A stretch of 25,688 bases of DNA from a virus. The position numbers and the translations under genes were made by a program. Below the pieces are notes generated by a model. It did no database searches. It saw nothing but the letters and a program-made list of their open reading frames with translations, and had not been told where the DNA came from. The DNA is taken from the IMG/VR virus record IMGVR_UViG_3300025138_000312, positions 1-25,688 of that record, one strand, 5' to 3'. Shown here piece after piece: positions 5,476-25,688 of this stretch. Position 1 is the stretch's first letter; each line of letters opens with the position of its first letter.

Positions 5476-5618
5476 CTAATACAACTTATAGGCGATACAA
5501 CCTATACGGTACTTAGAATCGTTCTAATACAACCTATGGGCGATACAACCTATACGGTACTTAGAATCGTTCTATACAACTTAAAGGCGATACAACCTAA
5601 AGCTGTATTAGAATCGTT
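5476..5618 (+). repeat. Three 48-bp direct repeats (iteron-like)
   Basis: Units at 5476-5523, 5524-5571 and 5572-5618 (48, 48 and 47 bp) run head to tail. Each carries two TACAACYTAWRG-type words around GGCGA and ends in TTAGAATCGTT. At each junction this reads as TTAGAA-TCG-TTCTA(A), an interrupted palindrome. Units 1 and 2 differ at only two or three positions and unit 3 is more diverged. A partial related copy (AATACAACCTATAGGCGA) precedes them near 5421. Iterons, operators or a promoter array are all possible. Confidence 0.75.
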
Positions 5619-5721: not shown

Positions 5722-6053
5722 CCCCTACCATGGGAAATAGCCGTACCCCTACCATGGGAAATAGCCCCCACCGTGGGAATTGGCCTGACCCCTACCGTGG
5801 GAAATAGTCTTAGTCTGACCTCGCTTCGCTCATGGGGCCTGAGTCATACTCATAGTAATAGTCTGACCCCTACCGTGGGAATTGGTCCGAACAATAGTAT
5901 TACTTTCGCTTCGCTCATGGGGCCGAGTCATACTCTGAGTCTTAGTCTGACCCCTACCGTGGGAATTGGTCTGAGTATGATTTCGTCTATTACTCCGCAA
6001 GCGGCTCTGAGTCTTACTAATAGTAATACTATGACCCCTACCGTGGGAAATAG
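5722..6053 (+). repeat. Seven copies of a 19-bp motif, left cluster
   Basis: Copies start at 5722, 5746, 5765, 5789, 5867, 5951 and 6035. The consensus is CCCCTACCRTGGGAA followed by ATAG or TTGG. From 5789 the copies are 78, 84 and 84 bp apart, with related spacers: TCGCTTCGCTCATGGGGCC occurs in two of them (5821 and about 5908), and AGTCTGAC-type runs occur throughout. The same core recurs at 10222-10350. The CCC...GGG core could form a short hairpin or be a protein site. Confidence 0.8.
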
Positions 6054-6280
6054 TCTGAGTAATCATATGTTTAATAGCCGTAGTTCATCCGTTTACTCAA
6101 GAAAATACTAAGACTATGACTAAGAGTTTGCACCCTATCTGGACCTATGATTTTGTTGCCCGATAAGTCCAGTTTACGATTCTCAGACGATATTTCAGAC
6201 CTTAAACCCCCGACAACAAAAGAAAATCCCCCAGAGAGCTTTCCCGCCGACCACTCTGAGATAAACTCTTAGAATAACTA

Positions 6281-6336
6281 TTGTGATCACAAGCTGGGAA
6301 TTTTGTGATCACAGACTTTTGCATTTGTGATCACAA
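6281..6336. promoter_or_regulatory. Three TTGTGATCACAA operators, 22 bp apart
   Basis: Perfect or near-perfect 12-bp palindromes lie at 6281-6292 (TTGTGATCACAA), 6303-6314 (TTGTGATCACAG) and 6325-6336 (TTGTGATCACAA). Spacing is exactly 22 bp, about two helical turns, so bound dimers would sit on one DNA face. They lie about 130 bp upstream of the first rightward gene. This is the classic layout of a repressor or activator array; the protein is not identified in the window. Confidence 0.75.
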
Positions 6337-6467
6337 TAGTTTAACTATGAGTAAACCTCAGAGAACAAATACCTGCTTGACTTCTGAGGCTATTTGTGGT
6401 AATTAAAGGATGGGTCAGAATGACTTTGGCCTGCTCACTCTGAGCTTTTACTAATAGGGAAACTATT

Positions 6468-6626: not shown

Positions 6627-6664
6627 TACCTAACCTTAACAGTAGAACCTATAGGAGAACTATT

Positions 6665-8236
6665 ATGATCAGCTATGATTTAGCCGACCGTTACATTCCA
6701 GAAATATCTTTGCGCCCTTGGGATAAGACCCTCAAGTCATTCCCTGACTATTCAATAGTCTCTGACCCACCATCTCTGGGTCTTGCTCGTAGGGTTAAGA
6801 ACTGGATCGAACCTCGCATCCAGAGATTAGCTAATCAAGAACTGGACCAGATGTACTATACTCTGAGACAAGCTAAGAGGGATTGCTGGGAAGCTGCCGA
6901 GGCTGGTGATATTACTGAGCAAGAGGCGGACACCCTAATATACATGATGACGGCAATGTCTAGGAACTATCGGTATTACGTACCTTTAGCAATCCAGTTA
7001 ATACTGTCAGCTATGTTGCCCAATGTAGAGCCTGCGTCTGCTGGTTTCATGGTACTCTGGCCTGATCAAAAGGGCAGAAACAAGGGCAGGGAAGGCCGCA
7101 TAATGGTTCGGGGCGGCAAAGGTATTAGACGGATGTTCCCTTGTCTGTCTGATAAGGAAATAGAGATACTTAATGACGCCTACCGTCATGAGTTCTCAGT
7201 CAGAGAGCTGACCCTCAAGTCTGGTCAGAGCAGAGCTAATTTTGCTCACGCATACCATTCTCCCATGGGCAAGTTAGAGAACCCTGACACTACCAGCGCC
7301 AGAAAGAACCTCGGCAATAGTTGTATGAGATACAATTTTACTGACACTCGGCAATTACGTTTCCAACCTACTGAGGCTTATGGCTCTGGGGATTTTACTA
7401 TCTATTGGACAGAAGATGCTAAGGGATTGATATGCTCCCGTTGTGTCGTACTGACTGCCAAAGAAACTCCCAGAGCTGCACCAATATATGGCGTCTGTGA
7501 GAAATCATTAGACATGATCCAAACGGCTCTGGAAGCCAACGGTACGGAACTTTATAATAGTCGTCACTCTAACTGGGAAGGCGGCAGGCTTCTTAGGTTT
7601 GATCACGACGAAGGCGAATACATCGCCCCGTACTTAGACGTCATGCCTCAGTCTCTGAACGAGGATGCGCACGATGATAAATACCTTATCATAGACGCTG
7701 GCGGGGATATTAACGCCAGCTCTTATCAAGGTATCTTATACGGCTCTAGTTGTCGTTGTGAGAGTTGTGGTGATAACGTCACTCAGTATGATAGTATGAG
7801 CCATGACGGCGATACCTACTGCCAAGACTGTTACTATGAGCGAGTGACCAGCTGCGAATACTGCGGAGATGATACTGACAACGATGATATTATACGTGTT
7901 CAGACTATGAACGGAGAAGAGAACTGGTGTAATCATTGCGGTCGTAATCATACCGAAGTCACAGACTCTGGCGAAAGATGGCACGATGAGTTTGTTATGA
8001 GCACTGCCCACAGTGTCACTATTAGTCAGGAAGAATACGACGACGACCACTTTACTTCTGACTGGGACCTGCAGATATATCCTCATAGTGAAATGGCAGA
8101 CATCGAAGACGGCTCTATCGTAGGGCTTAGCGAAGTGTCAGACAACCCAGACTACTTTTACTGCAACGACTCAGAGATTTGGAAAGAAAAGACAGATGAC
8201 AATGACAACCCGACAACCCTTCATACTGAAAGCTAG
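6665..8236 (+). CDS. Phage protein with C-terminal zinc-cluster region, 523 aa
   Basis: The start at 6665 is chosen because AGGAGA lies just upstream (CCTATAGGAGAACTATTATG); the frame is open further upstream without a ribosome site. The first 350 residues have no recognised fold but include a basic, Gly-rich patch (GRNKGREGRIMVRGGKGIRR). Residues about 363-425 hold paired cysteines (CRCESC at 363-368, CQDC, CEYC, CNHC at 422-425) separated by acidic loops, arranged like several small zinc ribbons or a treble-clef array; His residues nearby may also be ligands. The C-terminus is very acidic. This suggests binding to protein or nucleic acid. It directly precedes the metallopeptidase gene. Large zinc-cluster proteins occur in diverse phages without known function; no enzyme activity is assigned. 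Confidence 0.7.
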   Translation: MISYDLADRYIPEISLRPWDKTLKSFPDYSIVSDPPSLGLARRVKNWIEPRIQRLANQELDQMYYTLRQAKRDCWEAAEAGDITEQEADTLIYMMTAMSRNYRYYVPLAIQLILSAMLPNVEPASAGFMVLWPDQKGRNKGREGRIMVRGGKGIRRMFPCLSDKEIEILNDAYRHEFSVRELTLKSGQSRANFAHAYHSPMGKLENPDTTSARKNLGNSCMRYNFTDTRQLRFQPTEAYGSGDFTIYWTEDAKGLICSRCVVLTAKETPRAAPIYGVCEKSLDMIQTALEANGTELYNSRHSNWEGGRLLRFDHDEGEYIAPYLDVMPQSLNEDAHDDKYLIIDAGGDINASSYQGILYGSSCRCESCGDNVTQYDSMSHDGDTYCQDCYYERVTSCEYCGDDTDNDDIIRVQTMNGEENWCNHCGRNHTEVTDSGERWHDEFVMSTAHSVTISQEEYDDDHFTSDWDLQIYPHSEMADIEDGSIVGLSEVSDNPDYFYCNDSEIWKEKTDDNDNPTTLHTES

Positions 8237-8243
8237 GTACAGA

Positions 8244-9236
8244 ATGCACAAATTAGTAGAAATGCTGGCGTTCTGTCGCCCACAATCATCACTTACTCAG
8301 AACGAGTTTTGTGACAAATATCTTAGACCAGTGTTCGGTCAGCCTGACAGGGAAGGTAATTATATTCTAGTCATAGGCAAGGCCCCGAAGGTTTGCTTTG
8401 CCAGTCACCATGACACGGTACACAAAGTTGACGGTATGCAAGAAGTATTAGTCAAGGGCGATACTATATCCCTGCCGCCTATATCTGACAGTTCTTGCTT
8501 AGGCGCAGACTGTACCACTGGCATATGGTTGCAACTAGAGATGATCAGAGCAGGTATCGAGGGCGTCTATGTCTGCCATGCCTCAGAAGAGATAGGCTGC
8601 CTTGGGTCCAGATATGTAGTCGAGCGTTTGCCCAGATGGTTACAACGACTAGATGCCGTAATATCATTCGACCGCAAAGGTACGGAGTCTATTATTACAC
8701 ATCAAATGGGTTTGCGTACTGCCTCAGATGCCTTTGCAATATCCCTAGCAGGTATCTTAGACTTGCCCCTGCGTCCAGATGATACAGGCTCTTATACTGA
8801 CAGTAACGAATATGCCTCAGACGTGTCAGAGTGTACTAACCTGTCTGTCGGTTACTATGCCCAGCATACTAAGAACGAGCATCAGGACGTGTACTATTTG
8901 CAGCAACTCAGAGATGCACTGATTGCAGCTGACTGGTCAAAGCTAGTCATAGCTCGTGACCCTAGTATATCAGAGTTCAAGTATGAGGCTGGCGGCTATG
9001 CTAGTGACTGGGTTGCTGGTAATAGACGTATCGCAACCAACGCTTACTTTGACGACCCTTATATGTCGTCTGTCTCTACCTCAGAACGTGACGAGCGGGA
9101 TGACATTACAGACCTACTCCGAGAATACCCGTCACAGGTTGCAGACTGGCTTGACGCTAATAACATAACCTATGACGACCTCATACAAGAGCTAGACATA
9201 GTAGATGTAAAGCTGCAAGGACGTGCTTACTGGTAA
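8244..9236 (+). CDS. M20/M28-type zinc metallopeptidase-like protein
   Basis: Numbering from the ATG at 8244 (330 aa), the co-catalytic zinc ligands of the M20/M28/M42 superfamily can be traced: HHDTVH (H55-x-D57), GADCTTG (D89), SEEIGCLGS (E115/E116, the second acid being the catalytic-base pair), SFDRKG (D143) and a late His in QHTKNEHQD. The site appears intact, so an aminopeptidase, carboxypeptidase or deacylase activity is plausible. The C-terminal 90 residues are a less conserved acidic tail. The frame is open back to an ATG at 8196, which would overlap the previous gene by 41 bp; 8244 begins 8 bp after that gene and is my choice, with moderate certainty. It has no signal peptide, so it probably acts in the cytoplasm. 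Substrate unknown. Confidence 0.75.
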   Translation: MHKLVEMLAFCRPQSSLTQNEFCDKYLRPVFGQPDREGNYILVIGKAPKVCFASHHDTVHKVDGMQEVLVKGDTISLPPISDSSCLGADCTTGIWLQLEMIRAGIEGVYVCHASEEIGCLGSRYVVERLPRWLQRLDAVISFDRKGTESIITHQMGLRTASDAFAISLAGILDLPLRPDDTGSYTDSNEYASDVSECTNLSVGYYAQHTKNEHQDVYYLQQLRDALIAADWSKLVIARDPSISEFKYEAGGYASDWVAGNRRIATNAYFDDPYMSSVSTSERDERDDITDLLREYPSQVADWLDANNITYDDLIQELDIVDVKLQGRAYW

Positions 9237-10221: not shown

Positions 10222-10350
10222 CCCCTACAATGGAAAGCCCTCCGTGGGAATTTGGCCCCTACGTGGGAATTTTGTGTGACAAATATGTCACCCCTACGTG
10301 GGAATTTGTACCCTCCGTGGGAATTTGCTTGCACCCTCCGTGGGAATTTG
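10222..10350 (+). repeat. Six copies of the CCGTGGGAATT motif family, right cluster
   Basis: Copies begin near 10222 (degenerate, CCCCTACAATGGAAAG), 10238, 10256, 10291, 10311 and 10334, with the form CCCCTACGTGGGAATTT or CCCTCCGTGGGAATTTG. They are shorter-spaced variants of the seven copies at 5722-6053. TGGGAATTTTGTG is shared between the copy at 10256 and the sequence between the first two operators at 6294-6306, tying the two regions together. Confidence 0.8.
10276..10291. promoter_or_regulatory. GTGACA-AATA-TGTCAC inverted repeat (putative operator)
   Basis: Perfect 6-bp arms with a 4-base centre lie between two copies of the GTGGGAATT motif. The layout (motif, then TTTTGTG, then palindrome) parallels the TTGTGATCACAA operators at 6281-6336. 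Binding protein unknown. Confidence 0.5.
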
Positions 10351-10378
10351 ATTTAGTACTGGCAGAGGAGAAAATAAT

Positions 10379-10516
10379 ATGAGCGAAGAACTAAAAAAAG
10401 AGTTGCGTATGCTTGGTGTACTAGATCATAAAGTCCCTACGGTGGAAAATGATACGGCACCCATATGGGTAAGAGACGATGTAACATTTGATGATAACGG
10501 TGAGCCAAACTTCTAG
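10379..10516 (+). CDS. Small acidic hypothetical protein, 45 aa
   Basis: An ATG preceded by GAGGAGAAAATAAT opens a 45-codon frame beginning MSEELKKELRMLGVLDHKVP and ending DDNGEPNF. It is acidic, without Cys or a membrane segment. No family is recognised. It is the first gene of the ThyX block, immediately after the right repeat cluster, and lies 9 bp ahead of the next gene. The strong ribosome site is the main support. Confidence 0.55.
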   Translation: MSEELKKELRMLGVLDHKVPTVENDTAPIWVRDDVTFDDNGEPNF

Positions 10517-24274: not shown

Positions 24275-24284
24275 TGGTTGCTCC

Positions 24285-24566
24285 TTAAGATGGTTTAGTG
24301 GGCCAAGTTATTGTGTTAGGGAATCCTTCTTGTGCAGGTACGTCCCTAAGAGAAGACCTATAGGAGACCCACTCAGATGACATTGTAAGGTCGCTAGAAG
24401 CCATCCAATCAGTTTCAGCTAACTTAACGTCTCGTTCCTCACGAACAGATACAGCAGCCCTTTCATTGGCTCCGTCAGCCCATGCTTGTTCTTCAGCATG
24501 CCTTGCAGTCTGTTCTTCAGAACTTAATTCAATAAGCTGTCCATTTACGTTTTTATAATTTGGCAT
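24285..24566 (-). CDS. Phage tail assembly chaperone (Phage_tail_APC type), 93 aa
   Basis: Such small proteins aid tail fibre assembly. The product starts MPNYKNVNGQLIELSSEEQT, has an Ala/Glu-rich helix (EEQAWADGANERAAVSVREE) and ends with the family's signature: LAETDWMASSDLTMSSEWVS, YRSSLRDVPAQEGFP and ITWPTKP. It lies just downstream (leftward) of the tail fibre gene, the normal place for a chaperone. A second copy of its C-terminal half starts before the fibre gene at 25549, so the fibre is flanked by both. Confidence 0.8.
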   Translation of the reverse strand: MPNYKNVNGQLIELSSEEQTARHAEEQAWADGANERAAVSVREERDVKLAETDWMASSDLTMSSEWVSYRSSLRDVPAQEGFPNTITWPTKPS

Positions 24567-25536: not shown

Positions 25537-25548
25537 GTCTTACGCTCC

Positions 25549-25688
25549 TTATTCTGGTTTAGTGGGCCATGTTATTGTGCTTGGGAAACCTGCTTGGGCG
25601 GGTATGTCCCTAAGAGAAGACCTATAGGAGACCCACTCAGATGACATGGTAAGGTCGCTAGAGGCCATCCAATCAGTTTCAGCTAACT
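25549..25688 (-). CDS. Second tail assembly chaperone copy, C-terminal part (truncated by window edge)
   Basis: Reading leftward into the window, 46 codons are seen, ending at a TAA at 25549-25551. The product reads LAETDWMASSDLTMSSEWVS, YRSSLRDIPAQAGFP and STITWPTKPE: the same Phage_tail_APC end as the gene at 24285-24566, with only a few changes (V to I, E to A, N to S, S to E at the end). At DNA level the stretch from about 25607 to 25688 matches 24339-24420 almost base for base. Either a recent duplication or gene conversion. The N-terminus is outside the window, so it may serve an upstream fibre gene. Confidence 0.85.
   Translation of the reverse strand, partial: LAETDWMASSDLTMSSEWVSYRSSLRDIPAQAGFPSTITWPTKPE

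Follow-up and report, generated by a model that had tools for sequence, protein, structure and literature searches.

A nearly inseparable gene pair of phages, prophages and plasmids encodes a clan-MH metallopeptidase and a partner with a predicted GNAT-like core

Peptidases of the family phrog_4191 are encoded by KP34-like Drulisvirus, phiM1-like Phimunavirus and Vibrio podophages, and the records of these phages annotate the peptidase alone, its neighbour being labelled hypothetical. In KpV475 and Peat1 this neighbour belongs to phrog_6980/phrog_13313. A phage GNAT protein linked to proteolysis has been described in phiKMV, where Rac (gp28) causes cleavage of the alpha subunit of the host RNA polymerase, apparently via host proteases (PMC7552054). 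A search of the open-access literature retrieved no description of the gene pair reported below.

The pair was studied in a 25.7-kb virus record, the whole of which (25,688 nt) is referred to here as the window. Terminase and portal genes lie on its minus strand, and its plus strand carries a replication block of ThyX, primase-helicase, DNA polymerase, ribonucleotide reductase and PhoH. Between the two are located the genes of a 523-residue protein, here called Z, and of a metallopeptidase, P (Table 1). Z opens with an ATG at 6665, runs for 523 codons to a stop at 8236 and has a good ribosome-binding site. Translation of P from the ATG at 8196 would yield 346 aa and a 41-nt overlap with Z; the true start is probably the ATG at 8244, giving 330 aa, because the model gives residues 1-15 a pLDDT of less than 50 and most homologues begin near the stop codon of Z.

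Table 1. Features of the Z-P region in window coordinates
Feature	Coordinates	Strand	Basis
CCTACCRTGGGAA repeat, upstream copies bracketing Z-P	5724..6049	+	Repeat count
Shine-Dalgarno AGGAG of Z	6653..6657	+	Sequence
Z, 523 aa, distant relative of phrog_6980/phrog_13313 (unknown function)	6665..8236	+	PHROG matches of homologues
Z N-terminal part, residues 1-118, two long predicted helices, fastest-evolving	6665..7018	+	AF2, regional identity
Z core, residues 119-350, predicted GNAT-like fold	7019..7714	+	AF2, Foldseek
Invariant S219-C220-M221 motif of Z	7319..7327	+	Conservation among 83 Z
P322-Y323-L324-D325 motif of Z, D325 invariant	7628..7639	+	Conservation among 83 Z
Z zinc/LIM-like tail, residues 357-508, repeated hairpin-helix units	7733..8188	+	Weak LIM and BFVD matches
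Four CxxC pairs of Z, C365/368, C386/389, C397/400, C422/425	7757..7939	+	Sequence
P, clan-MH (M20/M28-type) metallopeptidase, phrog_4191	8196..9236, likely start 8244	+	Profile, Foldseek
Co-catalytic metal site of P, H71, D73, D105, E131/E132, D159, H224	8406..8867	+	Sequence, homologues
CCTACCRTGGGAA repeat, downstream degenerate copies	10224..10448	+	Two mismatches in each copy

An earlier, sequence-only reading of this DNA had described P as an intact metallopeptidase with all zinc ligands visible, and this description was borne out. The five metal ligands and the catalytic Glu (HxD...D...EE...D...H) are complete in P and were invariant across 37 diverse homologues; hence the peptidase site is retained in the family. 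P matched the phrog_4191 'peptidase' profile over residues 17-333 of 346 (E 4e-75). Its match to Pfam M28 (PF04389) was weak (5e-4; 20.2 bits against a curated cut-off of 21.3), and the P homologues of Peat1, KpV475 and BDU-MI-1 scored above that cut-off. In Foldseek searches, the P model gave 226 PDB matches at E<=0.001, with E values down to 2e-10, led by PepT, PahZ2 and M42 enzymes and also including M28. Beyond its one catalytic domain, the model has an unordered stretch and ends in a small helical part; the M20 lid domain is apparently missing. On the basis of the modelled fold and the metal-site residues, P is assigned to the clan-MH metallopeptidases.

The same reading had counted about four CxxC pairs in the 523-residue protein, and four pairs, beginning at C365, C386, C397 and C422, do occupy its last third. 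A fifth, C257-C260, falls within a predicted strand of the core. The number is above chance: shuffled residues averaged 0.46 CxxC, and 0 of 20,000 shuffles reached five. However, the name 'zinc-cluster protein' given to Z in that reading needs correcting. The pairs are present, yet they belong to a variable LIM-like tail, and the invariant part of the protein is the central GNAT-like domain with its S-C-M motif. In a non-redundant set of 82 Z proteins, eight lacked CxxC pairs altogether, and the zinc cluster is therefore not a defining part of Z. Among 83 diverse Z proteins, by comparison, S219, C220, D325 and G356 were invariant, M221 was conserved in 96%, and R259, Y275, P322 and Y323 were nearly invariant; no fully invariant His accompanied C220 in this set. 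In a Pfam scan of 44 Z members, eight matched LIM weakly (best 0.0017), the second half being degenerate, and in BFVD the tail matched LIM-, RING- and metallothionein-like proteins; these weak matches suggest a LIM-like zinc tail. The Z homologues of KpV475 and Peat1 matched phrog_6980/phrog_13313, whereas the Z of the window gave no match to these families at E<=0.001 and was connected to them by transitive alignment only. Second, shorter Z cores of 312-318 aa with no CxxC pair occur at L089:6622-7560 and L099:8043-8999; both phages also have a full Z, and the short core is a paralogue.

Structure prediction of Z alone, using AlphaFold2 on 44 viral sequences, produced a three-part model with a mean pLDDT of 92: two long helices (residues 41-117), a central alpha/beta domain (approximately 119-350) and a hairpin-helix tail (357-508). 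FemX (E 4e-3) was the best PDB match found by Foldseek; the rest of the top 50 matches, among them the spermidine acetyltransferase SpeG, were nearly all of the GNAT superfamily, comprising GNAT acetyltransferases and other aminoacyl transferases; no PDB match reached E<=0.001, and TM-scores were low. Viral GNAT proteins were also among the BFVD structure matches. The order of structural elements in the model suggests that the core is the part of Z that gives the GNAT match. The acetyl-CoA motif [QR]xxGx[GA] was missing from 79 of the 83 Z proteins, no Acetyltransf family was among the matches listed in the Pfam scan of 44 Z members, and comparison of the core with the Acetyltransf_6 and Leu_Phe_trans sets revealed no profile similarity (hhalign probability about 1-2%). 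Because the acetyl-CoA loop is missing and GNAT profile similarity is lacking, we call Z GNAT-like in predicted fold only, an assignment that the model is consistent with but supports weakly.

Two more specific identities for Z were considered and discarded. An acetyl-CoA-dependent GNAT was rejected, the motif being present in just 4 of 83 proteins, and the lack of sequence-profile similarity spoke against relating the core to the Leu/Phe-tRNA transferases or to FemAB-like families. An amidoligase or peptide-ligase link was looked for because Z had matched a phage amidoligase in BFVD; PF12224 was detected in 0 of 50 records, a result that does not decide the matter, as no control genome gave a hit either.

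To what extent Z and P belong together was examined by a gene-neighbourhood survey of their homologues, which showed that the two families co-occur in other phages. On viral contigs, a Z homologue was found within ~1.6 kb or less of 87/87 close P homologues that had enough upstream sequence. Among 97 P loci from IMG/VR and named phages, 77 had Z upstream on the same strand and 10 had it nearby on the opposite strand; the other 10 comprised eight at a contig end and two distant peptidases. The reverse search recovered P at 66/66 Z loci with room downstream, the other 8 of 74 being at a contig edge; many of these 74 loci are contigs already in the P search. Since some loci are near-duplicates, the counts do not represent independent events. 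The sequence-only reading had proposed a functional pair; this is strongly supported, and the linkage is far stronger than it had guessed.

Bacterial genomes and plasmids gave a similar result, with a detectable Z at 40 of 52 P loci and two more recognized by motif: L137 and L151 at first appeared to have no Z, but the adjacent ORF, which scored under the HMM threshold, carries SCM and PY(I/V)D motifs. Over all searches, the other P-like loci lacking Z encode peptidases that are distant (L025, about 33%; L026, 28%), short, truncated or of another group. The overlap or spacing between the genes is mostly -83 to +9 nt when measured on longest ORFs. The linkage is kept through REARRANGEMENT: inversion, reversed gene order and duplication. 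Divergent-strand Z is carried by one viral group, with 11 loci in a single region of the P tree; in a locus from a Spirochaetaceae bin (L109) the order is reversed to P-Z, with a ribosome-binding site of its own; and a Methylobacterium plasmid (L105) and a Mesorhizobium (L112) carry the pair twice, as Z-P-Z-P. The P tree requires at least three arrangement changes. By plain BLAST, the best other neighbour family was present at 6 of 38 bacterial loci, compared with 28 for Z. Z and P hence form a conserved, nearly inseparable unit. Adjacency of this kind shows a shared pathway, not physical contact.

This linkage bears on the idea of auxiliary metabolism, namely that P recycles host dipeptides for phage protein synthesis and that Z is an unrelated neighbour. 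The phage of the window does carry RNR, ThyX and PhoH, which are common auxiliary genes. However, Z adjoins P in unrelated phages, prophages and plasmids, even after inversion, and dipeptide recycling would bring no gain to plasmids; the idea is already disfavoured and we regard it as barely credible. The neighbours likewise weigh on a role in hypermodification of phage DNA or nucleotides, in which a Mom-like GNAT would aminoacylate bases or nucleotides and P would trim them. GNAT enzymes do modify DNA in Mom systems (PMC7824862). In phages, though, the sole other frequent neighbours of the pair are the replication genes for primase-helicase, DNA polymerase and ThyX, and no hypermodification genes were seen to recur beside it, which makes this role very improbable.

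Relatives of P were found in at least 375-384 phage records, including 231 from Klebsiella, 51 from Pectobacterium, 42 from Vibrio and only 3 from Pseudomonas, and plain tblastn with the KpV475 Z homologue retrieved the same numbers of Klebsiella (231) and Vibrio (42) records. A Z homologue is directly upstream of P in Pasto, BDU-MI-1, Peat1 and KpV475; the partner is mostly annotated 'hypothetical protein'. Carriers include T7-like phages, KP34-like and phiM1-like phages, a 121-kb phage with rIIA, and prophages with an integrase and a T7-like RNAP. A Thiothrix bin (L124:2308-9339) has Z and P in a row with an integrase-like gene and one for a T7-like RNA polymerase, and the locus is probably a temperate T7-like prophage. 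At L107:2975-5845 (Shinella sp. PSBB067), a T7-like RNA polymerase is in-frame with a Z tail, upstream of P and an integrase-like gene; a functional fusion was rejected as the explanation of this 956-aa 'Z', which is a T7-like RNA polymerase plus a Z tail in what is probably a decayed Pasto-like prophage.

The pair directly follows an ArdA-like antirestriction gene in Pasto; in plasmid pTEGF4 it lies about 4.5 kb from the relaxase gene, near an orphan DNA methylase; and in pMC4 it adjoins ParB-like, toprim and DUF2493 genes. Plasmid leading regions are hotspots of anti-defence genes, orphan methylases included (PMC11541004), and the position in pTEGF4 is consistent with placement in the leading region. 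These surroundings in Pasto and on the plasmids would be in keeping with a pair that acts early in a new host; they do not prove anti-defence. PADLOC profiles run against three Z and three P proteins gave no match to known anti-phage defence systems.

The sequence-only reading had also placed the pair within a repeat-bracketed module. Repeats on both sides are real: the window holds 12 copies of CCTACCRTGGGAA with two or fewer mismatches against 0.7 expected, and the upstream cluster (window 5724-6049) was also present in 4/4 close relatives checked (L011, L012, L014 and L017). The bracketing nevertheless holds for this phage clade only, because the pair is found in many unrelated contexts. 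Immediately 5' of the bracketing repeats, positions 5476-5618 contain three tandem 48-nt copies (CTAATACAACTTATAGGCGATACAACC...). Between the bracketing repeats and Z, at 6254-6363, there is an inverted repeat with 39-nt arms that are 82% complementary, which may be terminator-like or regulatory. A 145-nt direct repeat, 91% identical, occupies 24280-24424 and 25544-25688, its second copy being at the very end of the record.

The two proteins differ in their rates of evolution. Between the window and L011, identity was 95% for the primase, 92% for the polymerase, 94% for terminase and portal and 81% for P, compared with 52% for Z. Across 69 phages, mean conservation in every identity band decreased from P to the Z core to the Z ends. 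As judged from these identities, the two ends of Z are diverging at a much higher rate than P, the replication genes or the packaging genes, a pattern that fits a constant hydrolase working with a partner whose binding surfaces would track a changing target.

The same contrast between fast-evolving ends and a constant P could be produced by a non-catalytic Z, an adaptor or inhibitor whose tail and helices bring a host protein to P or keep P inactive, all chemistry being left to P. LIM-like repeats, such as those of the Z tail, usually serve to bind proteins, and the core has no acetyl-CoA motif. The invariance of S219, C220 and D325 across 83 very diverse Z proteins, on the other hand, goes beyond an adaptor's needs, and the L089 and L099 contigs carry an extra core without the CxxC pairs. 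We consider a purely non-catalytic Z unlikely, though a serious candidate. Less probable still is that Z acylates or aminoacylates, and P hydrolyses, a small molecule or free peptide of host defence, for example a peptide antibiotic, a signal peptide or an amino-acid conjugate. M20/M28 enzymes mainly cleave small peptides and amino-acid conjugates, and the P model, a single catalytic domain, is nearest to PepT and M42 peptidases, both of which are in keeping with such a substrate. Arguing against it, a fast-evolving partner with zinc repeats of a protein-binding type would not obviously be needed, and no biosynthesis or export genes recur near the pair.

A role in host takeover or counter-defence, as first suggested for the pair, is plausible. 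Our leading proposal, to which we give somewhat less than an even chance, is that Z and P form a two-component early system whose covalent change to a host protein or peptide would serve host takeover or anti-defence. In its fuller form, which we hold just as tentatively, phages, prophages and plasmids would share a two-protein system made of a dedicated metallo-exopeptidase and a GNAT/Fem-like transferase that depends on a cysteine and reads its target with a zinc tail, both directed at one host protein or peptide. Z and P would be made early in infection or upon plasmid entry. Z would bind the host target through its N-terminal helices and LIM-like zinc tail, both of which evolve fast, and its GNAT/Fem-like core would transfer an aminoacyl or acyl group to this target through C220/D325, or at least hold it. 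P, as a single-domain co-catalytic zinc amino-exopeptidase or deacylase, would trim the same target; the two could act in sequence or as writer and eraser. Given their near-inseparability across unrelated phages and plasmids, two orphan annotations become one testable system, and since cultured phages with the pair exist, knock-outs of Z, of P and of both are directly feasible. Should Z-P act against a host defence or rewire a host protein, it would rank among the more widespread systems of this kind that still lack an assigned function.

Compared with the described families, P adds a new member to a known one; no function has been described for the two-gene system. The phrog_4191 phage peptidases, of which the window P is a clear member, also sit directly downstream of a Z homologue, and share only about 31-41% identity with the window P. 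The phrog_6980/phrog_13313 neighbours align with Z across the SCM...PYLD core at about 20% identity. PepT, M42 TET and M28 aminopeptidases have the clan-MH fold and complete co-catalytic metal site in common with P, which differs in its apparently single catalytic domain. The Fem/GNAT transferases gave the best, though weak, Foldseek matches to the modelled Z and differ from it in sequence profile, in the acetyl-CoA motif and in the invariant S-C-M, which is not a known GNAT motif. Rac offers a parallel to the role proposed for Z-P, as a phage GNAT that works with proteolysis to take over the host and occurs in related T7-like phages; it differs in that it has an acetyl-CoA pocket, makes use of host proteases and is encoded after the RNAP gene. 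Rac was found in 194 Pseudomonas records and in none from Klebsiella or Vibrio, so that Rac and Z-P are largely complementary by host genus, a pattern for which phage ancestry alone may account.
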